From the NCBI GenBank assembly GCA_019038695.1, contig JAHOYZ010000031.1:1-55885 (forward strand): 55,885 nt of DNA, in the 5' to 3' direction. Under the pieces are notes generated by a model. It was given only the letters and a program-made list of their open reading frames with translations, made no database searches and was not told the origin of the DNA. This document shows positions 37,136 to 48,760 of this stretch, piece after piece. Every line of letters starts with the position of its first letter. Position 1 is the stretch's first letter. The translations under genes and the position numbers were made by a program. This DNA comes from Candidatus Zixiibacteriota bacterium (GTDB lineage Bacteria; Zixibacteria; MSB-5A5; GN15; FEB-12).

Positions 37136-39493
37136 TCAGCAGCCACAAGGTGGGTCACCCCCAAGGAACAGATATTCAACAAATAGAGTGAGGTCTGCGA
37201 TATTAATCTCCCCATCGCAATTTACATCACCGGACTCAATTGGTGACGGTGCGAGCCCACCAGCAAAGAGATATGCCACGAAGTATGTCAGATCAGAGAC
37301 CACTATCCCGGGTGTTCCATCCATGTCGCCGCGAGGTTGACAGATTGAGACTATCCCGGACGCAATCCGAGGTTCATACAGTAGTATTGGTCCGTTGAAT
37401 ACTGGGGTGTAGGAGGAGCCGTAGCCACCCAGCTGTATCGTGGTAGTCTGGCCGAATTGAGCCGAAGGAGACACTGAGAAATACAGCTTTACAACGGGGC
37501 CGATTCCGGACTCCATATTAGGCGTTGTCCCATTCTGTGAAGAGGCCAGTTTCAGTGTCTTGCGTTTCGCCCAGGGATCCTCGTGAATGAACATTGTATC
37601 CTCGAACTGATCCGTGCGACAGCCAGCGGTAGAGAACGAGTCGAGGTCCAGGTCAAGATCTCCGGCATATTCGATTGGAATCTCGATAGTGTGAAGCGGA
37701 ATGGTATTCCTGGCGTACACGGCTACTTCAACAGTCTCACCGGCTGAGCCTTCGGCGTCATAAGAGAGCATCGTATCAGCCAGCGCCACGACATAGTTTG
37801 CTCGCTCAGCAGCTCGAATATCACCTCCGGCATTGACCTCCAGCCTCACGTCGAACATTCCCTGGTCAGTGTAAGTGTGGGCTGGTGATTGTATTAGAGC
37901 AGAATCACCGTCACCGAAATCCCATGTCCATGTATCAACTGACAGACCCGAACTGGCTGTGAAGTTGATATCATATGGAACCCAGCCGATAGTCGTATCG
38001 GCCGTGAAAGAAACACCGACAATTTCATAGACCGATCCTTGAAGGTCGGGTAACGGGCCGATGAGCTTACCGTGCGGGGCTTGTGGAGTTGAATGAGATA
38101 TGAGCATGGTTCGCATCTCAGCATGGTTTAGAATGCGGCCATGAGCGGCCAGATGCACTCCCTGTAGACAGGCACACGCCCCAACAATAATTGGAGAAGC
38201 GCTGGAGGTTCCGGCAAAGGACGAAGTGTAATGATTGTTTGGATTGGAACCATAGAGATCACCGTAACCAAGCGTGTAGACATCCCACGTCCCAAAGCCA
38301 TGAACATCAACACGTTCACCATGGTTAGTGAAAGACGCAGGATAGTGGTACGAATTAGAAGCGCCTACGATAATGGCTCCCGAGTTGCGATAATTGGTGT
38401 CAAAGAGACTACCGTACAATCCCACATCATCGAAATCCTCGTTTCCATTGCCGGCTGCTTCAACAACAATCCGACCAAGGGCCGAGGCGGTCAGGATAGC
38501 GTCAAAGTTCTCCTGCCAGTACTCCATACAGACATAGCCCAGTTGATCATCGCGTGGTTCAAAATCATAGTGAGGTCCCGGCGCGTGCAATTCAATGAGG
38601 ATGATATCACCTGTGTCGGAGTTATTTGTTGCCGTTACCAGGGCTTGCGCGGTGGTCATTGACCCGATTGATACTGTTCCAAGGTCAACATTAAATGCAA
38701 TACCGGTCATGCCGAAGCTATTGGAGTCAGCAGCGATTTCGCCCAGTACAGCCGTTCCATGATTCCACCAGCTAGGGTCGTCGTAGCGGTAACCGGCGAT
38801 GTGGAAATTATCGGTACCGCCGTGAAGGTCTTCATGAGTTTCTATCCAGTTGCCTTCAATGTCAATCACTTTGACACCTTCGCCTTTACCTCCCGGGAAG
38901 CCCCAGGCATAATAGGCGTCAATGCCAGTTGGAGCGGCTTGCAAATAGTACTGTTCCGATTCCCAGCCCGGTGAAACATTCGTTTCATTGATGCTGGCCA
39001 GTTCGGGGATGGGAGCGAAATAGGCGATTTCGACTATTTCCAGAGCATTCAATTCGTTCACCCGGGCCAGTCGATCCTCAGGTGACATTGATTCTGGAAG
39101 TGCCAGACGGTGGTAGAGAGAAAGATCCGGCAACAACGTGCCCAGACGCTCCGAGCCGACCATCCGCATCTGGTCCAGCGTAGTCTTGTCGGTCTGAAAA
39201 TGTGACTGCACACTGAGCGCCTTATTCGATGAAGCAATGGCTGTGTTGAGACGGTCCCATTCATCACCAGTTCGAAGGAACCGGGTGCCATCAAACTCCG
39301 GCTGGCCCATTCCTTCGGCCAGTTTGAAGACGATTTCGTCGAGGTTCTCGTTAAGCGGTAATTGGTCGTAGGACGGTTTGTCGACGACCCTGCGCTTGAG
39401 TTCGGGGGCCATACTCGCCAGGGCCGATCCTGCAAACACGACCATGAATAGTAAAATTGTTGGGAACACCCAAGAGCGACTCGAAAACACCAT
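37136..39493 (-). CDS. Secreted S8 subtilisin-like protease with PKD and dockerin-like domains
   Basis: A 785-residue secreted serine protease. A signal peptide (residues 1-27) is followed by a propeptide region to about 180. The catalytic triad is Asp211 (VKVIDIEGN), His245 (NHGTAVLGE) and Ser430 (GTSSASP), with the oxyanion Asn349 (AAGNG). A PKD-like domain (about 495-570, with WDFGDGDS) follows. A cohesin-like beta region then leads to a C-terminal dockerin-like pair (about 735-785: GDMDGTPG and GDVNCDGEINIADL). Instead of a YPNPF sorting domain it ends with the dockerin and a CGC tail. A GAGGTGA site precedes the ATG. Confidence 0.93.
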   Translation of the reverse strand: MVFSSRSWVFPTILLFMVVFAGSALASMAPELKRRVVDKPSYDQLPLNENLDEIVFKLAEGMGQPEFDGTRFLRTGDEWDRLNTAIASSNKALSVQSHFQTDKTTLDQMRMVGSERLGTLLPDLSLYHRLALPESMSPEDRLARVNELNALEIVEIAYFAPIPELASINETNVSPGWESEQYYLQAAPTGIDAYYAWGFPGGKGEGVKVIDIEGNWIETHEDLHGGTDNFHIAGYRYDDPSWWNHGTAVLGEIAADSNSFGMTGIAFNVDLGTVSIGSMTTAQALVTATNNSDTGDIILIELHAPGPHYDFEPRDDQLGYVCMEYWQENFDAILTASALGRIVVEAAGNGNEDFDDVGLYGSLFDTNYRNSGAIIVGASNSYHYPASFTNHGERVDVHGFGTWDVYTLGYGDLYGSNPNNHYTSSFAGTSSASPIIVGACACLQGVHLAAHGRILNHAEMRTMLISHSTPQAPHGKLIGPLPDLQGSVYEIVGVSFTADTTIGWVPYDINFTASSGLSVDTWTWDFGDGDSALIQSPAHTYTDQGMFDVRLEVNAGGDIRAAERANYVVALADTMLSYDAEGSAGETVEVAVYARNTIPLHTIEIPIEYAGDLDLDLDSFSTAGCRTDQFEDTMFIHEDPWAKRKTLKLASSQNGTTPNMESGIGPVVKLYFSVSPSAQFGQTTTIQLGGYGSSYTPVFNGPILLYEPRIASGIVSICQPRGDMDGTPGIVVSDLTYFVAYLFAGGLAPSPIESGDVNCDGEINIADLTLFVEYLFLGGDPPCGC

Positions 39494-39855: not shown

Positions 39856-40539
39856 ATGAATAGGATTTCGATTCTGGTTACAGTTCTGCTGGTACTCACT
39901 TTGAGTTGTGTCGCCCTGGCGCAAGAAGATGAAGAGACTGGTGATATTCTGGAAATTACGCTGTCCGGTGGAATGGCTATACCGATGAGTGGGCTTGCCG
40001 ACTGGCAAACAGGCTTCGACCTCGAAGATCAACCTGAGATTGTCGATCGTGCCCCAAACAACGGGTGGGATATTGGTATCGATGTTGGATACTTCATCAA
40101 TCCCAAGCTGATCGTTGGGCTCAATTTCACGTACACTGCCTTTGGGATCGACACCGATGTGGATCTTGATCATCGGCATCGCCTGTTTAGTCCTGCTCTT
40201 TATGGTAAGTATTACTTTGAAGGAGAGACGAATCTAGTGCCGTACGTCAAAGCCAGTGTCGGGCTGGAGAATGCCAAGTTCAGCACATTTGTTGAGAATC
40301 CTGGTGGACGACGGTTCCGCGAAATTTCGTATGATCCGACTCTTTTCTACGCTGCTGCTCTAGGATTATTTTATTACACAGCTGACTATAGTGGAGTCTT
40401 CATTGAGGCTGATTACAAAATGGCCAGCGCTGAGAGTACCGAAAGTGTATATCTCGACGACACCTATTTGTTTGGCGAGAATATTGCCGTTCTACAGATC
40501 AATTTCGGCGTTCGGCTGCTGGTTGGTTCTGGAGACTGA
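39856..40539 (+). CDS. Outer-membrane beta-barrel-like protein
   Basis: A 227-residue exported protein. The signal peptide ends at VALA, before QEDEE. The mature part has alternating hydrophobic strands (WDIGIDVGYFINPKLIVGLNFTY, GKYYFEG, VPYVKASVGLENAKF) and a C-terminal strand with aromatic and hydrophobic residues, as in eight-stranded OmpA/OmpW-like barrels. The function is unknown; it may be a small porin or structural barrel. A strong terminator follows, so it is probably a single-gene unit. Confidence 0.85.
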   Translation: MNRISILVTVLLVLTLSCVALAQEDEETGDILEITLSGGMAIPMSGLADWQTGFDLEDQPEIVDRAPNNGWDIGIDVGYFINPKLIVGLNFTYTAFGIDTDVDLDHRHRLFSPALYGKYYFEGETNLVPYVKASVGLENAKFSTFVENPGGRRFREISYDPTLFYAAALGLFYYTADYSGVFIEADYKMASAESTESVYLDDTYLFGENIAVLQINFGVRLLVGSGD

Positions 40540-40587: not shown

Positions 40588-40611
40588 GTGACTTGAGGGC
40601 AATTGGAAACT

Positions 40612-41985
40612 ATGCAGAAGAGTGTTATACCGAAGACAAGGCTGCTACTTGTTGATGACGAGAAATCGCAACGAGAGCTCCTGGGGGGTTTCCTGTCCAA
40701 AAATGGTCTCGATGTCACCTTGGCCTCGACTGGAGAACAAGCCCTGGAATGTTACCATCATGTATTTGCTCCGGTAGCGTTGGTGGACATGAAAATGCCC
40801 GGAATGGGGGGGATCACGTTATTGCAACGGCTGCGAGAAATCAACCCGTTTATCCAGGTGATTGTCCTCACTGCTTTTGGTACTGTCGAGACGGCTGTAG
40901 CGGCTATGAAGGCAGGGGCGTTTGACTACCAGACTAAACCGGTCAACGACCTGGAGGAGCTACTACTGAAATTACGCAAAGCTGCCGACCAGAATAAGCT
41001 GGTAGTGGACAATGCCGTAATGATGGAACGCCTCGCCGAAGTCTTCCCGACGACTGAAATATTAGGCGAATCAGAAGCCATACTACGTGTCAAGGAGTTG
41101 ATTACGTTGGTCGCTCCCAGAGAGGCGACAGTTCTGGTTACAGGGCCATCAGGAACCGGGAAAGAGCTGGTCGTCAGGGCCATACACGCTTTGTCGCAAC
41201 GGGCTAATAATCGTCTGGTTGCTATCAACTGTGCGGCGTTTCCGGAACATCTGCTGGAGTCAGAGTTGTTTGGCCACGAGAAAGGGGCTTTCACAGGAGC
41301 GGATAGGGCAAAACAGGGACGCTTCGAACTGGCCGACGGTGGTACGCTTTTTCTGGACGAGATCGGTGATATGCCGCTGTCTATGCAAGTGAAACTGCTG
41401 AGAGTTATTGAAGAAAAGAAAATACAGCGACTGGGATCGGTCAAAGAAATTTCGCTGGACATTCGTATCATCACCGCCACCAATCGCAGCCTGGAGAAAA
41501 TGGTCGCCGACGGTTCTTTCCGAGAAGATTTGTACTATCGTCTAAATGTTATCGCGATCAATCTTCCTTCTCTGGCCGAACGGCAGGGTGACATCTTATT
41601 GTTGGCCGAGAGTTTCATAGATCGGTTTGCCCAAAAAACCGGGCGGAATATTTCCGGTATCGATCCCGAGGCGGCCGACATTCTGGTCAATTACTCCTGG
41701 CCGGGTAATGTCCGGGAGCTTGAGAATATGATTGAGCGGGCGGTTGTAATGTGTCGCTCGGATTGTATTACCGCCGATGATCTGACAGGTCTGGCGAAGT
41801 CTGGGGAGGGCGCAACATCGGCGCGCAAAGTCATGCCCTTGGCTGAGATTGAGAAAGAGCACATCGCCTTCTGTCTCGACCAACTTGATTGGAACCTCGG
41901 GCTTTGCGCTGAGAAACTGGGCATCCATCGCAATACTCTTCGATCCAAGATCAAAGAATATGACCTTACGCGCGAATCGGATTAG
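40612..41985 (+). CDS. Sigma-54-dependent response regulator (NtrC family)
   Basis: A 457-residue activator. The receiver domain (about 9-120) has VDDEK (Asp15, Asp16) and phospho-acceptor Asp59 (LVDMKMPG). The AAA+ domain (about 138-375) has Walker A GPSGTGKE, the sigma-54 contact loop GAFTGA (225-230) and FLDEIGDM. The C-terminal Fis-type helix-turn-helix (about 415-457) is WNLGLCAEKLGIHRNTLRSKI. It should act only with sigma-54 RNA polymerase. There is no histidine kinase next to it. The start may instead be TTG 40603. A near-consensus sigma-54 promoter lies 125 bases past its stop. Confidence 0.95.
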   Translation: MQKSVIPKTRLLLVDDEKSQRELLGGFLSKNGLDVTLASTGEQALECYHHVFAPVALVDMKMPGMGGITLLQRLREINPFIQVIVLTAFGTVETAVAAMKAGAFDYQTKPVNDLEELLLKLRKAADQNKLVVDNAVMMERLAEVFPTTEILGESEAILRVKELITLVAPREATVLVTGPSGTGKELVVRAIHALSQRANNRLVAINCAAFPEHLLESELFGHEKGAFTGADRAKQGRFELADGGTLFLDEIGDMPLSMQVKLLRVIEEKKIQRLGSVKEISLDIRIITATNRSLEKMVADGSFREDLYYRLNVIAINLPSLAERQGDILLLAESFIDRFAQKTGRNISGIDPEAADILVNYSWPGNVRELENMIERAVVMCRSDCITADDLTGLAKSGEGATSARKVMPLAEIEKEHIAFCLDQLDWNLGLCAEKLGIHRNTLRSKIKEYDLTRESD

Positions 41986-42178: not shown

Positions 42179-43033
42179 ATGTTGAACAAGTTATTTCCGC
42201 TTATCGCTTTGATCGGTCTGCTTCTGGTAGCCGGGTGTGAAGACGATGAAAAAGTATACGATCCGGCCCCAGAACCACCGCAAGGCGTTCTGTCCATAAC
42301 TGGTGACGGTGAAGTTACGATTGAATGGATGGGACCTTACGATCGAGATATTGATGAGTTCATTGTGTATCGCAATAGTGAGGCCATTGATGCCCAATAC
42401 ACCGAGATCGGTCGCGTAGCGGCGGTGGCTGATGCTGGAGTTCACCTTGATATCTACACCTATGTCGATGACGAAGTAACCAACGGCATTACCTATTTCT
42501 ATGCAGTGGGGTCTGTCGATCATGCGGGTCAGGTGTCGGATTTATCGGCCGAGGACGTCTTTGACACGCCTCGTCCCGAAGGAATTGAGTTTCTGGAGGA
42601 TATTTTCACTGATACGTTAGATGCGGGATTCAACTTCGAAAGCCAGTCAGTTATCTCTGCTCTTAGCTCGCTTTGTGATATCTACGTCGATTCGTATGAA
42701 GGTATCATGTACTTCAATGCCGGACAAATCGGAGATCCCCGAGAGACTGTGATTCAGGATATGGGTTACACTGGTCATTGGGATGACATTGGTTGGGCTC
42801 CGACTATCGGATGGTCCGAACTGGGTTATGTCGAGGTCATACGCAACCACACTTATGTGATTTGCACGGATGACACCACATATGCAAAAGTCTTAGTGAA
42901 AGCAATAGATGGTGGTGCTGGTGTTACTTTCCAATGGGCGCATCAGGAAGTGCCGGGCAATCCCGAGCTGACAGCACCCAATGGCAATACCGACATTTCG
43001 AATAATGACAAGAGCGACGTGTCGCTCCAGTAA
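42179..43033 (+). CDS. Lipoprotein with fibronectin-III-like domain
   Basis: A 284-residue lipoprotein. The signal peptide ends in a good lipobox (LLVAGC, Cys20), followed by EDDEK. The part to about residue 120 is fibronectin-III-like (VTIEWMGPYDRDIDEFIVYRNSE, ITYFYAVGSVDHAGQVS). The rest contains aspartate- and aromatic-rich strands (HWDDIGWAPTIGWSELGYVEV) with no recognised fold. It is the first gene after the sigma-54 promoter and is followed after 20 bases by the DUF4384/PEGA gene with the same orientation. It is probably attached to the outer membrane or inner-membrane face of the periplasm. Confidence 0.83.
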   Translation: MLNKLFPLIALIGLLLVAGCEDDEKVYDPAPEPPQGVLSITGDGEVTIEWMGPYDRDIDEFIVYRNSEAIDAQYTEIGRVAAVADAGVHLDIYTYVDDEVTNGITYFYAVGSVDHAGQVSDLSAEDVFDTPRPEGIEFLEDIFTDTLDAGFNFESQSVISALSSLCDIYVDSYEGIMYFNAGQIGDPRETVIQDMGYTGHWDDIGWAPTIGWSELGYVEVIRNHTYVICTDDTTYAKVLVKAIDGGAGVTFQWAHQEVPGNPELTAPNGNTDISNNDKSDVSLQ

Positions 43034-43053: not shown

Positions 43054-44661
43054 ATGTTACGACGAATCATACCTACGTTAATAGTGGCTGTCCTGGCTGT
43101 CATCTTGATGGCACCTGTGGCATCGGCCCAGAATATCGCCCGTCAATACGATGACGACGACTATCGGTATCAGCAGGAGGACTACACTCCTCGCTACGAT
43201 GATCCTCAGGTTGGTGATCGTGGACGAGTAGATCGCTACCTGGATGCCGAGGTCTGGACCAATCATGACGATGGTGAGTACTACGAAGGTGACAACATCA
43301 CGATCCATTTTCGGGTTAACCGTGATGCTTTTATCGTTATCTACACCATCGATACCCGGGGACGTCTGAATATGCTGTTCCCGACCGATCCGACCGAGAG
43401 CAACTTTGTCAACGGCGGTGTAACTTATCATCTGCCGGCTGGATGGGATGACTACGATCTCGTCGTCACTGGTCCGGAAGGAGTAGAGACGATCCAGATC
43501 ATCGCCTCTCGCGAACAGATTCCGATCCCGGATTGGTATCCTCAGTCGGGGGTGGTGTGTGATTGGGAGGATCGTCACGAATTTCTTGACTACGTCAACG
43601 ATCGCCACTTTGTGCGCTACGAAGGACAACGGTTTGCCTACGACCGGGCCTCGATTTACGTCGATGAATGGGAAGAACACTACTTCCGACCGGTGTACCA
43701 ACCAGTGTACCACCACTGGACCATGTGCGGCAATGTATACCTGGATTATCCGTTTGGAGCCTCGGTCTATGTGAATGGCATCTACTGGGGATGCACACCG
43801 TTGTATCTGCCGCGCGTCTATGTTGGCTGGCATACGTTCACTATCTATGATGAATGGGGTTATTGCTGGGAATCAGACATTCATGTTTCTCGTTACAATA
43901 CGGTCGTACTTGATTACAACGTGGTACGACCGAGACCGCATGTGCAGTCCAAGTTCAAGCAAGTCAGACAAGTTGCGTATCGTAACCCGGCCAAGAATGG
44001 CTACCCCAAGTATGTCGCCCGGAAAACGGCTATCCTAAATTCCAAAAAGGTAAGCCGGAAGAACGTTGTCCTGGCAGATAAGTCAGGTAATAACGTTACC
44101 AAGATGGTGACGGTAGGATCGAAAAGAAATATTCGGGGTAGTGGCTCAATGACGAAGAGTGAGCGTGGATGGGGAACAACCGGATTGATTGGAAGTGCAA
44201 GCTCCAAAGCAAAGCGCGACAAATCGACGCGCCGGTCTGCAATTGGTGAATCGTCAAATGATTGGAGAAGCAAGAGCGGTACTCGGACCAAAGACTATTC
44301 TTCGAAATCTGCGGGTAGCTCCAGCAGCGGGAAGTCTCGAGGTTCGTCTGTGTCGAGGAGCAGCCAGTCATCGGGGTCATCATCGAAGGCCAAGGCGGCT
44401 CAGAGAAAGACGGTAACCCGTAGCAAGGAATCATCCTCAGGTTACTATCAGAAAAAGTCTTCCGGCTCGCCTTCCAAGAGCAAGAGTTCAAAAGGGAAGT
44501 CCGGTTCGGTTAAAAAATCGAAATCATCCGGCGGTTCAAGCAGTTCCGGATCGAGTGTGAAAAACTCGGGCAGCAAATCATCAGGCACGAGTACGAAATC
44601 AACAGGAACCAAGAGTAAGTCATCCGGATCGAAGTCTAAGGGAAAAGGAGGCCGGAAGTGA
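43054..44661 (+). CDS. DUF4384/PEGA-type exported protein with Ser/Lys/Gly-rich tail
   Basis: A 535-residue exported protein. The signal peptide ends near residue 25 (VASA). An acidic linker (QYDDDDYRYQQED) leads into a DUF4384-like domain (about 62-152: AEVWTN, GDNITIHFRVNRDAFIVIYTID, GRLNMLFP). A PEGA-like domain follows (about 226-290: LDYPFGASVYVNGIYWGCTPLYLP). From about residue 295 on the chain is basic and then almost only Ser, Lys and Gly. PEGA and DUF4384 domains are found on surface proteins of many bacteria. The tail is likely disordered and strongly positive. An AGGTGAG site precedes the ATG. Confidence 0.85.
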   Translation: MLRRIIPTLIVAVLAVILMAPVASAQNIARQYDDDDYRYQQEDYTPRYDDPQVGDRGRVDRYLDAEVWTNHDDGEYYEGDNITIHFRVNRDAFIVIYTIDTRGRLNMLFPTDPTESNFVNGGVTYHLPAGWDDYDLVVTGPEGVETIQIIASREQIPIPDWYPQSGVVCDWEDRHEFLDYVNDRHFVRYEGQRFAYDRASIYVDEWEEHYFRPVYQPVYHHWTMCGNVYLDYPFGASVYVNGIYWGCTPLYLPRVYVGWHTFTIYDEWGYCWESDIHVSRYNTVVLDYNVVRPRPHVQSKFKQVRQVAYRNPAKNGYPKYVARKTAILNSKKVSRKNVVLADKSGNNVTKMVTVGSKRNIRGSGSMTKSERGWGTTGLIGSASSKAKRDKSTRRSAIGESSNDWRSKSGTRTKDYSSKSAGSSSSGKSRGSSVSRSSQSSGSSSKAKAAQRKTVTRSKESSSGYYQKKSSGSPSKSKSSKGKSGSVKKSKSSGGSSSSGSSVKNSGSKSSGTSTKSTGTKSKSSGSKSKGKGGRK

Positions 44662-44722
44662 TATCAGCTTTTGGACTGGTCATGTCGATCTGTGGGACAA
44701 TTGACAGACATGAGGTGAGAAG

Positions 44723-45037
44723 ATGAAACGAATTCTGACATACATTCTGGTGGTCTGTTTTGCGGCGGTGTCTGTTGGCGGCAATTCGTGGGCGGTCAAG
44801 AAGAAGACCAACAAGAAAAAGGTCACGGTTGTAAAAAAGGCACCGGTAAAGAAACCGATTGTTAAAAGCGTCAAAGGCACCAAGGGTGCGAAAAAGAAAT
44901 ACGATACGTTTATTGATAAGAACAAGAACGGTATCGACGATCGCCGCGAGAACCTCAAGAGCACCAAAGGCAAGAAGAAAGCCGCCAAAGCGAAGAAGAC
45001 CACCAAGACCAAGAAGAGCGACTCGAAGAAGAAATAG
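44723..45037 (+). CDS. Small exported lysine-rich protein
   Basis: A 104-residue protein. A signal peptide (about residues 1-24, ending NSWA) is followed by an 80-residue mature part in which I count 32 lysines. In the middle is YDTFIDKNKNGIDDRREN, a loop like the calcium-binding repeats of thrombospondin or dockerin. The sequence is histone-H1-like in composition but has an export signal, so it should lie outside the cytoplasm. It follows the SK-rich protein by 61 bases, with an AGGTGAG site. The function is unknown. Confidence 0.8.
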   Translation: MKRILTYILVVCFAAVSVGGNSWAVKKKTNKKKVTVVKKAPVKKPIVKSVKGTKGAKKKYDTFIDKNKNGIDDRRENLKSTKGKKKAAKAKKTTKTKKSDSKKK

Positions 45038-45098
45038 CCTTGTAGGTCACGGTTGTTTGCATCCTGATACAATGTCAGGACTGGAAGGGTCTCCTGAT

Positions 45099-47276
45099 CT
45101 ACTTCAGAAGCAGCATCTTTCGCGTGACGGATTCAACGTCGGAGCGCAGTCGATAATAGTATATTCCACTGGCGACCGGGAGACCGTCATCATCGGTCCC
45201 TTCCCACATTATCTGGTGCTCACCCTCAGAGAAGAACGCCACATGGCGGTACACTTGTTCGCCGAGTACATTAATAATCACCAGTTCTACAGTCTCAAAC
45301 TGAGAGACATAGAAGGGAATCGCCGTACCGGTGTTGAACGGGTTGGGGTAGTTCTGATACACCGTGAAACGGTCGGGCAGCCCCGGTTCCGTATCCGATT
45401 TGGTGGGCAAATTGTCTAGAATCGTCAGATCGACGGGATAGCCTTCGTAGGTCGCGAAAGACGCATCAAGCAACTCACTTCCTGGGGGATAGGACAGGAG
45501 CAAGCCGCTGGAGATGTACTCAGATCCAATGTCGTATACCAACACATGAGTGGCGCTGTCATCAAGTCGGTAGGCGTATTTCATACCCATCTGATCGGCG
45601 AGTAGCGTCGGAGATATTACACCATTGAATACGAGGTATGCCGCACCGAGAGGCCAATCGGTCTGGATTCCGATATTTGTTTCTTCAACCATCATACTCA
45701 CCGGAGTTATTGGCGGGTCTGGTGGATAGGGGAGAGCGTCGCCGACAATAATGCGGATTTGATACACAAAATCCTGGATTGTAAGAGTTATGCCGTCTTT
45801 GTTCACGTCGGATTGTGAAATCTGTGCTTGTTGGTTATCGAAGACACTCAAACCGTAGACGAAGTAGTTGGCATACAGCACGGCGTCGGCGATCTCGTTG
45901 GCAATCCCATTGATATTGATGTCGCCCCGGTTAGCCTCAACTGAGTCGCAGCCGATTATGTCAATGCCGCCATTGATGAAGTCGACATAGCGAATCGGGG
46001 TTTGCACAGCACCTTCGAGGCAGATGTTTGGCGCTCCAAAGTAGGTTGGGAGGGCTGCCTCTGGATCAGTCAACTCGCTACCGTAATCGTAATCGAATAC
46101 AAAGCGAGAAACCCCTGTCGATATCGAATACGGGTTCTGATCATCGGTCCGATGAAAGGTCATGACATTATCGCCGCAATCCTCCCAATAGAACCTGATG
46201 GGAGCATAATAACACTCATATGTGCGATCGTCGGTGACAAGGAAGTCCATGGTAAACAGCGTGAACGGCTTGGTCTCAAGGTTGTAACAAGTGGGATGAT
46301 ACGGGCCATTATTAGTTTCGGCCATACCGAACACTCGCAGCCGCCCTCGAGCACCTCCAGGTTCCTCACCGGGGAGGTAATTGTAGCGATAAGTGAAATA
46401 CTCCCAATCGCATGCTTCGTAAATCTCACCTTCGGTAATTGTTTGGAAGGCCATGGCTGAGGCATTGAAGACAATCAGAAGATCGAAGCCGAGTATGCCG
46501 AAATCGCCTGCCTCAAGCGTGACGTCGATGTACTCATGCATACCTTGCAGGCTGTTGTGAGTCTTTTCGATGCGGAGAACGTAGGGTTCGGGAATGACGG
46601 ATTCTGCGCGAACGTTGAAGAAAACCTCACAATAGCTCGTGTCCTTACCGTCAGTGGCTCCGCAGACGATTCTAAAGACCTTTCCGGTATCCGGTGCCGT
46701 TGCTTCAAGGTGTAGGATACCGGCCTCTGCGTAGTGAAGCCAACCCGATGGTTCGGGTTCTACTGCAGCAATAAAATTCGTGGTAGGGTCGCACGGATCT
46801 ATGTCGTGCGAAAAAATCCATATGGTGTGGTTGCCAAGCCCGTTGAAGTCATACCATGAGCCGCACTCGCCAATATTGGGAGAGAGAGTGGGAACAGAGT
46901 TCGTAACGGTCACATCAAAACGACAAGCTTTACTACCAGTTGTAATGTTCCGGCCTTCGACAGCCGCGATTACGACCGTGTAGGTCATGCCTGATTCTTC
47001 TATAGAAGGACTCCATTCCCAGACACCGGTGCGAGAATCGACAACGCCAGGACCTGACAACACACGATACTTGATCGGGCCAAGCCGGACATCAGGCACG
47101 AGCACACGGCTTTTCGCTTTGACCGTAGCGGTGAATGTCTCGCAGTGCGAACCGGACATGTCGTCGGGTCGTTCGGTCCATTCAGGCGAGCGGTAGTGCT
47201 GGCCCTGGATGGTGGAGAGCGGAATGACGACCGCAACAAGTAGTATCAATAGGCAGACGAGCGTGTTTTTGTTCAT
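45099..47276 (-). CDS. Exported cohesin/dockerin-like protein with YPNPF C-terminal domain
   Basis: A 725-residue exported protein. A signal peptide (1-26) is followed by a block with KSRVLVPDVRLGPIKYRVLSGPG, shared with the upstream gene. The middle (about 225-385) looks like a cohesin-type beta domain (LEAGDFGILGFDLLIVFN, GRLRVFGMAETN). A dockerin-like stretch (about 450-515) has GDININGIANEIADAV and DVNKDGITLTIQDFV. The last 89 residues (637-725) are a YPNPF-type sorting domain. No enzyme motif was seen. Its ATG overlaps the upstream stop as ATGA. Confidence 0.86.
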   Translation of the reverse strand: MNKNTLVCLLILLVAVVIPLSTIQGQHYRSPEWTERPDDMSGSHCETFTATVKAKSRVLVPDVRLGPIKYRVLSGPGVVDSRTGVWEWSPSIEESGMTYTVVIAAVEGRNITTGSKACRFDVTVTNSVPTLSPNIGECGSWYDFNGLGNHTIWIFSHDIDPCDPTTNFIAAVEPEPSGWLHYAEAGILHLEATAPDTGKVFRIVCGATDGKDTSYCEVFFNVRAESVIPEPYVLRIEKTHNSLQGMHEYIDVTLEAGDFGILGFDLLIVFNASAMAFQTITEGEIYEACDWEYFTYRYNYLPGEEPGGARGRLRVFGMAETNNGPYHPTCYNLETKPFTLFTMDFLVTDDRTYECYYAPIRFYWEDCGDNVMTFHRTDDQNPYSISTGVSRFVFDYDYGSELTDPEAALPTYFGAPNICLEGAVQTPIRYVDFINGGIDIIGCDSVEANRGDININGIANEIADAVLYANYFVYGLSVFDNQQAQISQSDVNKDGITLTIQDFVYQIRIIVGDALPYPPDPPITPVSMMVEETNIGIQTDWPLGAAYLVFNGVISPTLLADQMGMKYAYRLDDSATHVLVYDIGSEYISSGLLLSYPPGSELLDASFATYEGYPVDLTILDNLPTKSDTEPGLPDRFTVYQNYPNPFNTGTAIPFYVSQFETVELVIINVLGEQVYRHVAFFSEGEHQIMWEGTDDDGLPVASGIYYYRLRSDVESVTRKMLLLK

Positions 47277-48760
47277 TCGATTAGCATCATCTTTCTGGTA
47301 TGAGTCTCATCACCTATTGTGATTCGATAGAAGTATATCCCACTGGCGACTGGTTGGCCTGCATCGCTTGTTCCATCCCACGTTAACACTTGGTCGCCTT
47401 CGTAGAAATGCGAGGCTTGATGATGGACCTGTTGTCCGAGCATGTTGTAAATCACCAATTCGACAGTTGTCGATTGCGGGACATAGAAAGGAATAGTCGT
47501 GCTGCCGTTGAACGGGTTAGGGTAGTTCTGGGCTGGTGCTTCTGATCGGAGCATGATCATCGACCCGACGGTTGACTCACCATCAATTGTGACGCGATAG
47601 AAATACACACCGGGGGATACAGGCTCCCCTGAGTTATTGGTTCCGTCCCAAGTGAACTTGGTGGAGCCAGCTTCATAGTGCCCGGTCGTATCGTAGACCA
47701 ATTCCCCCAGTATGTTGAATATCTCCAGGGTTACATCATTTTCGGTCATCAGGTACACTGTTATGGTCGTAGAAGTACTAAATGGATTTGGGTAGGGCTG
47801 GTATATGTAGTTCTGTGCATGCCATTCCTCAATTCGGACCGGCTGGCCCCTCCAGGTGGCGAGTTCGAGGTTCAGGACATTACCGTTGGGTCTAAGAAAC
47901 GGACCTTGGATTCCCTGGTTCCACTGAAAACTGTAAACCAGCACACGAGTTATATCCTCCTCAGCATCGTAGGCGTAACGCATTTCAACTTCATAGTCCA
48001 TCAGTTCCGGGGTCGCGTTTCCTTCAATGATTATATGTGCAGCCCCCAACCAATCGCCCAAGTCAATATAACTTCCAATTCTCACTCGTACCGTCGCCTG
48101 TTTCGTCCCCCGATAAAACCAGTCGCCGTTAATGTATCGAATATTGCACACAAGGTCTGCCACAGAAAGCACATCTCCGTCGCCGTTGATATCGCTTACC
48201 AGGGACTGAGCTTCGTAATCCCACAATACATCAGGTCCATAGACGAAGTAATCCGTGTACAGTACGGCATCAGCAATTTCAAAGGCCAACTCATTCAAAT
48301 TAAGGTCGCCTATTTTGTGGCATGGCGAATCCTCGCAAAGAATGACCTTGAATCGACAAGCGTCATTACTAGTGGTTATCATTCCGTCTTGAGAAGCGGC
48401 GATCACGACTGTCTGGGTGTCGCAATCTGTGAAATAAGACGGTCGCACATATTCCCACTCTCCGGTTGCCGAGTTGAGTGTGCCGGGCCCCGAGCGGAGT
48501 TGGTATCTGATCGGACCGATTCGGACGTCCGGCACCAAAACTCGACTGCGAGCGCTCACTGTGGTGCGGTAAGCGCCGTCTACGCATGGCACGAACTCCC
48601 CGGGAACATCGACGAATTCCGGCGCTCGCCGGTGAGAAGCCTGAGTTTCAGATACAGTCAAGAGGGCGAAGAGAATGAGACATCCCACCAAATAGGTCAA
48701 AATAGGTGTTCTGTCTTTCTTTGAGTTATCGACTTCAGCGAGGTATCTTTCTTTTGGCAT
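47273..48760 (-). CDS. Exported dockerin-like protein with two tandem YPNPF domains
   Basis: A 495-residue exported protein whose hydrophobic signal lies at residues 21-41, after a charged stretch. The N-terminal block (ARSRVLVPDVRIGPIRYQLRSGPG) matches the downstream gene. A dockerin-like region (about 147-217) has GDLNLNELAFEIADAV and DINGDGDVLSVADLV. Two C-terminal YPNPF-type domains follow in tandem (about 318-407 and 408-495); the second resembles the single one of the downstream protein. The gene is read from the promoter at 48793-48820 and has an AGGGGA site. It is translationally coupled to the next gene. Confidence 0.86.
   Translation of the reverse strand: MPKERYLAEVDNSKKDRTPILTYLVGCLILFALLTVSETQASHRRAPEFVDVPGEFVPCVDGAYRTTVSARSRVLVPDVRIGPIRYQLRSGPGTLNSATGEWEYVRPSYFTDCDTQTVVIAASQDGMITTSNDACRFKVILCEDSPCHKIGDLNLNELAFEIADAVLYTDYFVYGPDVLWDYEAQSLVSDINGDGDVLSVADLVCNIRYINGDWFYRGTKQATVRVRIGSYIDLGDWLGAAHIIIEGNATPELMDYEVEMRYAYDAEEDITRVLVYSFQWNQGIQGPFLRPNGNVLNLELATWRGQPVRIEEWHAQNYIYQPYPNPFSTSTTITVYLMTENDVTLEIFNILGELVYDTTGHYEAGSTKFTWDGTNNSGEPVSPGVYFYRVTIDGESTVGSMIMLRSEAPAQNYPNPFNGSTTIPFYVPQSTTVELVIYNMLGQQVHHQASHFYEGDQVLTWDGTSDAGQPVASGIYFYRITIGDETHTRKMMLIE

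Follow-up and report, generated by a model that had tools for sequence, protein, structure and literature searches.

A short ORF in DNA from a Candidatus Zixiibacteriota bacterium raises the question of what so lysine-rich a protein would do once it was exported. The ORF lies in a window of 55,885 nucleotides (contig JAHOYZ010000031.1), the whole of the stretch that we analyzed. A first-pass annotation, made from the letters of the DNA, had counted lysine at 32 of about 80 mature residues of the product and had placed the sequence DKNKNGIDDR in its middle. Both observations were accurate: the mature part, after residue 24, consists of 80 amino acids, including 32 K, 2 R, 5 D, and 1 E (net charge of about +28 at pH 7), with DKNKNGIDDRRE as its midportion, and DKNKNGIDDR occupies residues 65 to 74. 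In the whole ORF, 33 of 104 residues are lysine (31.7%). Among 44 nonoverlapping window ORFs of at least 90 amino acids, a set chosen greedily in which an antisense ORF had replaced the loop-protein ORF, the maximum was 11.5%, and the mean over 40 window ORFs of at least 150 amino acids was 4.6%. The features discussed below are collected in Table 1.

TABLE 1 Coordinates of the loop protein gene, its segments, and neighboring genes in the window
Feature	Coordinates	Strand	Basis
Lysine-rich loop protein gene	44723..45037	+	104 aa; ATG at 44723, TAG ends at 45037
Signal peptide, residues 1-24	44723..44794	+	Proposed cleavage SWA|VKKK (picked by pattern); hydrophobic core; AF2 helix 2-22
Lysine-rich linker, residues 25-59	44795..44899	+	AF2 low-confidence coil, read as disordered
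Conserved loop block YDTFIDKNKNGIDDRRENLK, residues 60-79	44900..44959	+	Conservation; lowest dN of the segments; single match in window
Lysine-rich tail, residues 80-104	44960..45034	+	AF2 low-confidence coil, read as disordered
Exported DUF4384 and PEGA protein	43054..44661	+	Pfam DUF4384 1.5e-20, PEGA 1.8e-05; AF2; tail charge
Acidic lipoprotein	42179..43033	+	FN3-like by sight, no Pfam match above cutoff; mature net charge -41
NtrC-type sigma-54 response regulator	40603..41985	+	Pfam; synteny in 28/41 loci, some cut short
Small outer membrane beta-barrel protein (OMP)	39856..40539	+	Pfam OMP_b-brl 6.1e-07; synteny in 21/41 loci, some cut short
Two adjacent T9SS-type sorting-domain proteins	45099-48760	-	Second has two such stretches; downstream of loop gene

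The ORF at 44723 to 45037 is a real gene. A candidate ribosome-binding site, GAGGTGAG, lies a short distance 5' of the ATG, and the lysine codons are mixed (21 AAG and 12 AAA), so the gene is not a simple run of A. Comparison with the same-genus genome G001 gave a dN/dS ratio of 0.156, with a bootstrap 95% interval of 0.06 to 0.33 drawn from the 434 of 500 replicates in which dS was finite. The dS value was high (1.65) and was saturated in the signal and linker segments, for which no ratio could therefore be given; dN was lowest in the loop (0.04), followed by the tail (0.21) and by the signal and linker (0.39 each). This ratio, together with the conservation of the family, led us to reject a chance or artefactual ORF. 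The antisense ORF (44680-45072), which spans the entire gene and mirrors its lysine codons, was also rejected. In the AF2 model, pLDDT was 85 to 92 over residues 1 to 20, which form the signal helix, 76 and 69 over residues 61 to 80, and 56 to 66 elsewhere, and we read the predicted structure as disorder flanking one partly ordered block.

A search with the single protein found relatives in 74 of 98 related genomes at a loose cutoff (E ≤ 1). The profile of an alignment of 30 sequences, A2, found a relative at E ≤ 0.01 in 72 of the 83 class genomes that were at least 90% complete, and the acidic lipoprotein was present in 81 of these 83, counting strong matches only (E ≤ 1.4e-70). Ten genomes had a strong lipoprotein match but no match to the A2 profile. 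L131 to L133 among them hold a diverged loop ORF, L124, L125, and L130 end at a contig or fetch limit, and in L126 to L129 the locus runs as far as hrcA but has no loop ORF. By name, 44 of 52 GTDB loci belong to Zixiibacteriota, Zixibacteria, or GN15 and 4 to "bacterium," with 1 each assigned to TA06, WOR-3, Verrucomicrobia, and Ignavibacterium. The Ignavibacterium entry (L120) was discarded, being identical in contig coordinates and score to class genome G059, as was the Verrucomicrobia match (L114), which sits among phage-like genes and looks convergent. The L114 ORF (2374-3066) encodes a membrane protein whose C-terminal end, GFVDANKNGIDDRLENLKAEVK, is strikingly like the loop block; this end matches phrog_20410, also a membrane protein, at E 0.0023, and convergence is probable. 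The 22-residue loop block itself had no match at E ≤ 10 among phages and plasmids. For the loop protein, searches of Pfam, NCBIfam, PHROG, and the PDB yielded no credible family: NCBIfam matches fell far below threshold, PHROG matches to the window protein were weak (E 0.24 and 0.83), and PDB matches by sequence were at chance level (E 0.4 to 0.56 for A2 and 0.14 for L162). Nor was the family named in the literature searched, which covered lysine-rich Zixibacteria proteins and lysine-rich, low-complexity periplasmic proteins of bacteria.

Export of the protein is well supported by sequence. A hydrophobic N-terminal core is present in all 37 family rows, including the window protein. The signal peptide proposed in the first-pass annotation held up, and cytoplasmic relatives, which would have spoken against it, were not found. 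In 29 of 30 rows, the residue before the proposed cleavage site is small; the exception is a mispicked site. Mature proteins in A2 mostly begin with [VI][ED]KK or a similar sequence; the site was chosen by pattern (wrongly for L042) and the [VI][ED]K start thus arises partly by construction, but the alignment consensus AVEKK is independent of site picking. The proposed cleavage site lacks a Cys, and Pfam and NCBIfam searches found no T9SS-type C-terminal sorting domain on the protein. The earlier placement of the protein outside the cell was not supported, as a Sec-type signal alone leads to the periplasm.

The loop consensus in A2 is [YF][DN]xF[IVL]DxNxNG[IV]DDRxE, in which F-2, D1, N5, G6, D9, and E12 are each present in 30 of 30 sequences and N3, D8, and R10 in 29. 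A2 comprises 28 of 37 ORFs that passed a strict motif screen, plus L002 and L025 as the only additions from a further set of new sequences; of the 37, two near-duplicates (L046 and L050) and seven longer or more diverged sequences (L044, L061, L064, L065, L066, L069, and L070) were omitted, and the 30/30 counts accordingly concern closer relatives. Across all 37 ORFs, N5 and R10 are each kept in 35 and E12 in 34, the last position otherwise being D (1 ORF) or K (2 ORFs). At 4 of 41 loci (L045, L060, L067, and L068), the copy failed the strict screen yet is present. Beyond A2, E12 is replaced by K in L060, L069, L070, L131, and L133 and by I in L132, position 5 is D in L060, L068, L069, L070, L131, L132, and L133, and G6 is lost in L060 (R) and in six WOR-3 variants. 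A degenerate form of the loop pattern gave a single match in the window and none in 100 shuffles. The corresponding DNA pattern matched once in each of 13 of 21 genomes, with codons that differed between matches; the match was the loop gene in 11 of the 13 and lay elsewhere in G055 and G058.

The lysine content is far less constant. The mature lysine fraction ranges from 0.13 to 0.45 (median, 0.27) across the 30 A2 relatives, placing the window protein near one end, and the net charge ranges from -1 to +32 and is positive in 28 of 30. Because some relatives are near zero or negative, a strong polycationic character is not needed everywhere. The earlier description of a protein that is 40% lysine is therefore true of the window protein but does not define the family. 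Judged from the alignments, the conserved element is the calcium-type loop and not the lysine content; along with the loop, the family keeps its export signal and its gene order. Binding of Ca2+ by the loop is plausible by analogy, since such loops are Ca2+ sites in many settings and EF-loop-like sites bind the ion in disordered proteins; the absence of the last ligand from several deep members weighs against such a site.

The loop gene ends a conserved series of genes for exported proteins. AF2 models the PEGA protein encoded just upstream as folded over residues 57 to 376, approximately, and with very low confidence over residues 379 to 535. This 157-residue tail contains 60 S, 29 K, 10 R, and 5 D/E (net charge, +34), in agreement with the earlier remark that the preceding gene ends in an SK-rich stretch. 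The further suggestion that basic tails are a theme shared by the two genes is borne out by comparison: all 40 PEGA proteins compared have a net positive charge over their last 100 residues (8 to 29; median, 16), whereas the charge medians of control proteins (OMP, regulator, lipoprotein, HrcA, GrpE, DnaK, and DnaJ) fall between -11 and +6. By fold, the PEGA protein resembles PDB entries in a generic, Ig-like way (best E value, 3.2e-04, to an S-layer protein; TM, 0.19). Cys20 of the lipoprotein is invariant (15 of 15 rows aligned), and the mature net charge of this protein lies between -16 and -46 across 32 loci (-41 in the window). Among seven exported window proteins compared, the PEGA and loop proteins alone are basic, and four others are acidic, at -6.8 to -9.4 per 100 residues. 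Elsewhere in the window, a minus-strand gene (37136-39493) encodes a subtilase with a PKD domain and a subthreshold dockerin match at its C terminus.

The comparison of gene neighborhoods took in the window and 40 further loci, 41 in all, of which several are cut short. BLAST clusters placed relatives of the PEGA protein in 40 of them, of the lipoprotein in 36, of HrcA in 33, of DnaK in 30, of GrpE in 29, of the NtrC-type regulator in 28, of DnaJ in 25, and of the OMP in 21; hrcA, grpE, dnaK, and dnaJ were named by sight from sequence. In 66 of the 71 genomes that have both genes, counting the best match per genome and lipoprotein matches at E ≤ 1.4e-70, the loop and lipoprotein genes lie on one contig and strand, 1.4 to 3.0 kb apart; in the other 5, they are on separate contigs. 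The genes upstream in the window are as in the relatives, and the downstream side differs, with the minus-strand T9SS-type proteins instead. A shared operon with hrcA-grpE-dnaK-dnaJ was rejected: these genes are near in many relatives, yet CIRCE-like sites (up to 4 mismatches, counted without a shuffle control) occur in 22 of 53 loci, one genome being counted twice, so the heat shock genes look like a separate unit. Sigma-54 promoters for the neighboring regulator were likewise discounted, with 0, 1, 0, and 1 matches in four gene sets versus 0.85 to 1.15 expected from simple shuffles. Two deep-branching class members, L132 (4044-4412) and L135 (3883-4254), carry one additional small gene, for a lipoprotein-like product, between those for the acidic lipoprotein and the PEGA protein. 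This product has a CYDCH (CxxCH-type) motif, a basic C-terminal end, and no NCBIfam match, and in these two genomes it is a third basic-ended exported protein of the cluster.

The loci named TA06 (L097) and WOR-3 (L098) lead into one phylum, where the lipoprotein occurs in 52 of 141 genomes (E ≤ 1e-30). At 15 of 20 lipoprotein loci fetched from WOR-3, a downstream ORF carries loops or a loop variant, and several of the loci have one gene more between the lipoprotein and the loop-type protein. Among these 15, L162 and L173 have six loops, L170 four, L158 (cut) three, and L159, L161, L163, L166, and L168 one; L097 and L098, counted apart from them, have five each. Some WOR-3 relatives multiply ordinary DxNxDG or DxDxDG loops. 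The variant, D.DSN.[VI]ND followed by [QR]RE and without G6, is found in L167, L169, L171, L172, L174, and L175. As for the remaining five loci, L160, L165, and L176 end before or nearly before the place, L177 encodes a 70-residue lysine-rich protein without a loop, and no loop ORF was seen at L164. Within this phylum, Pfam confirmed the DUF4384 and PEGA domains for just two loci, L098 and L162. The PEGA proteins of L097 and L098 have no Ser/Lys tail (net charge of +5 over the last 100 residues), and their basic stretch is near the N terminus instead (+15 over residues 26 to 75); in L162, the corresponding value is +4, and the product of the preceding gene carries a basic tail (+25). Thus the loops differ in number, the proteins in lysine content, and the loci in which product bears the basic stretch, while place and export stay. 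In L098 (3128-3393) and L097 (2504-2935), the gene 3' of the loop gene encodes a small protein that we take to be archease-like.

The charges of the basic proteins and the acidic lipoprotein were also compared across loci. At the 32 of 36 lipoprotein loci that have a strict-motif ORF, the charges gave rho values of -0.44 (P = 0.011) for lipoprotein versus PEGA, -0.33 (P = 0.063) for lipoprotein versus loop, and 0.55 (P = 0.001) for PEGA versus loop, the last being one of three pairs tested; the corresponding phylogenetic contrasts were -0.40 (P = 0.02), -0.23 (P = 0.21), and 0.50 (P = 0.004). GC content does not account for the covariation. Control pairs, taken without phylogenetic correction, were also correlated (OMP versus lipoprotein, 0.81; DnaK versus PEGA, -0.72; HrcA versus loop, -0.42), which weakens the case for a specific pairing of the lipoprotein with the basic proteins and shows that the covariation is not specific; a genome-wide or habitat effect is possible. 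We regard the PEGA-loop link as suggestive and the link of the basic proteins to the lipoprotein as weak. A more acidic DnaK tends to accompany a more basic PEGA protein across loci (n = 25 for the rho of -0.72), and the OMP shows the same, weaker trend (rho = -0.43, P = 0.066, n = 19); this is possibly a habitat effect such as salinity.

With the gene, the family, the gene order, the signal-peptide-like N terminus, the conservation of the loop, and the charge pattern established, we considered what the protein does. The reading that we tentatively favor, as possible and still short of probable, is that the protein is a disordered polycation, exported from the cytoplasm and carrying a loop that may bind Ca2+, and that it acts with its neighbors on anionic polymers of the envelope. 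The loop gene would be the last of a conserved three-gene envelope cluster, after those for the acidic FN3-like lipoprotein and the DUF4384/PEGA protein. A Sec-type signal would export the product, most of whose chain would stay disordered and polycationic, while the single D-x-N-x-N-G-[IV]-D-D-R-x-E block would fold around Ca2+, or dock on a partner, to give one ordered node. The lysine-rich arms may then bind lipopolysaccharide (LPS), peptidoglycan, polysaccharide, or the coencoded acidic lipoprotein, and the loop protein and the basic tail of the PEGA protein would together serve as an electrostatic glue that organizes the periplasm or the outer membrane surface. We counted against it the loss of ligands in deep members, the mostly Asn residue at position 5, the near-zero or negative charge of some relatives, the PEGA proteins of L097 and L098, which have no Ser/Lys tail, and of L162, whose end is close to neutral (+4), the unspecific covariation, the loop-less loci L126 to L129, and the acidic nature of the disordered proteins studied in PMC8391695. 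A related and quite unlikely variant is a calcium-tuned polyelectrolyte layer, in which the lipoprotein (-41) and its two disordered basic partners (+34 for the tail and +28 for the loop protein) would condense to a degree set by the calcium loops; loop number would be the tuned variable, at one in the Zixiibacteriota relatives read and four to six in some WOR-3 members.

The loop block could instead be mainly a docking motif for the PEGA protein or lipoprotein, with the lysine arms as a flexible, loosely selected spacer. Where G6 or E12 is lost, D9 persists, mostly with D8 or N8 and with R10 or Q10, which favors a second role for the block such as docking, and the wide lysine variation and conserved gene order fit as well; on balance we hold docking as the main role to be unlikely, though deserving of weight, because most ORFs of the class sample retain every ligand (E12 in 34 and N5 in 35 of 37) and some WOR-3 relatives multiply their ordinary loops. 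A periplasmic protein that simply binds peptidoglycan or the inner leaflet of LPS, unlinked to its neighbors, would suit a polycation that carries a Sec-type signal and has neither a Cys at the proposed cleavage site nor a T9SS domain, but its clustering with other exported proteins is conserved in two phyla, and we consider this rather unlikely. The first-pass annotation had suggested that an exported histone-like tail could bind DNA, LPS, or acidic polysaccharide outside the cell. For a histone-like role on DNA that is extracellular or being taken up speaks the 40% lysine of this species, yet neither lysine richness nor net charge is conserved, the conserved part is a calcium-type loop, and no DNA uptake gene was recognized among the conserved neighbors examined. 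Nothing points specifically to DNA or to LPS; DNA is an unlikely partner, and the histone-like reading as a whole is very improbable. Least probable of all is a polycation that organizes mineral or silica as diatom silaffins do, together with the Ser/Lys/Gly-rich PEGA tail. Tails rich in S, K, and G with YYQKKS-type stretches occur in many relatives, and silaffin-1A, listed by its S, K, G, and Y groups, promotes silica precipitation according to an excerpt of PMC11733937, but the likeness is one of composition, and the same excerpt attributes silaffin activity largely to modifications.

These results give a first coherent account of a family that has no name, although 72 of the 83 genomes examined from its class, one known largely from metagenomes, contain it. 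The family reaches into the WOR-3 phylum as well, again next to this lipoprotein. Should the electrostatic reading hold, the locus would represent a bacterial envelope component in which disordered polycations and a polyanion are encoded side by side and would offer a handle on the gain and loss of calcium-type loops.

How does the protein compare with known systems? The TSP3-type loop consensus has D1, D/N3, D/N5, G6, a hydrophobic residue at position 7, D9, and an acidic residue at position 12. Its ligand set (D1, D/N3, D/N5, G6, D9, and D/E12) is present in 30 of 30 A2 sequences, the window protein included, and thrombospondin type 3 repeats and TSP3_bac (PF18884), like the loop protein, place this spacing in exported proteins. 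The Zixiibacteriota relatives read differ in having a single loop and no loop cysteines. The Pfam TSP3_bac model matched neither the window protein at E ≤ 1 nor the 22-residue loop at E ≤ 10, and L170, from WOR-3, gave a subthreshold match (E 0.098). Dockerin type I domains consist of two loop-helix repeats; the single loop differs from these, and the window protein had no dockerin Pfam match (PF00404) at E ≤ 1. Neither TSP3_bac nor dockerin was among the 25 of 45 families listed for the 30 relatives. Of the earlier likening to "thrombospondin or dockerin loops," the TSP3-type ligand spacing survives and the dockerin resemblance does not; the Pfam TSP3 model does not fit either. Histone H1-like tails are lysine rich and disordered, as the loop protein is, but it differs in its export, its calcium-type loop, and its unconserved lysine; a histone-like protein would be cytoplasmic with a conserved basic character, whereas the signal-like N terminus is present in 37 of 37 rows and net charge runs from -1 to +32.

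The DUF4384/PEGA surface proteins (for PEGA, PMC2447325) are represented by the neighbor, which combines both domains with its basic disordered tail; the loop protein has neither domain. A typical EF-hand follows Dx[DN]xDGx[ILV], with a hydrophobic residue at loop position 8, in the excerpted text of PMC3123361. The loop does not fit this pattern: in A2, position 8 is D in 29 and N in 1 of 30 sequences, and position 5 is N in all 30. As to flanking helices, AF2 predicts only a 4-residue helix (residues 73 to 76) at the loop end, with low confidence. The same excerpt, by Rigden and colleagues, describes short Dx[DN]xDG calcium loops in many contexts, and the present loop may be a further one, differing by Asn5 in 35 of 37 strict-motif ORFs where Asp is usual. 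EF-loop-like sites in disordered proteins bind Ca2+ at about 100 µM, and the Excalibur motif is DxDxDGxxCE in proteins that are acidic, as described in the available portion of PMC8391695. The loop protein resembles these in having an EF-loop-like site within a chain read as disordered and departs from them in lacking DxDxDGxxCE and a loop Cys and in being basic. Taken together, these comparisons suggest that this family, unnamed in the libraries and literature searched, is best described as a calcium-type loop set in an exported polycation.
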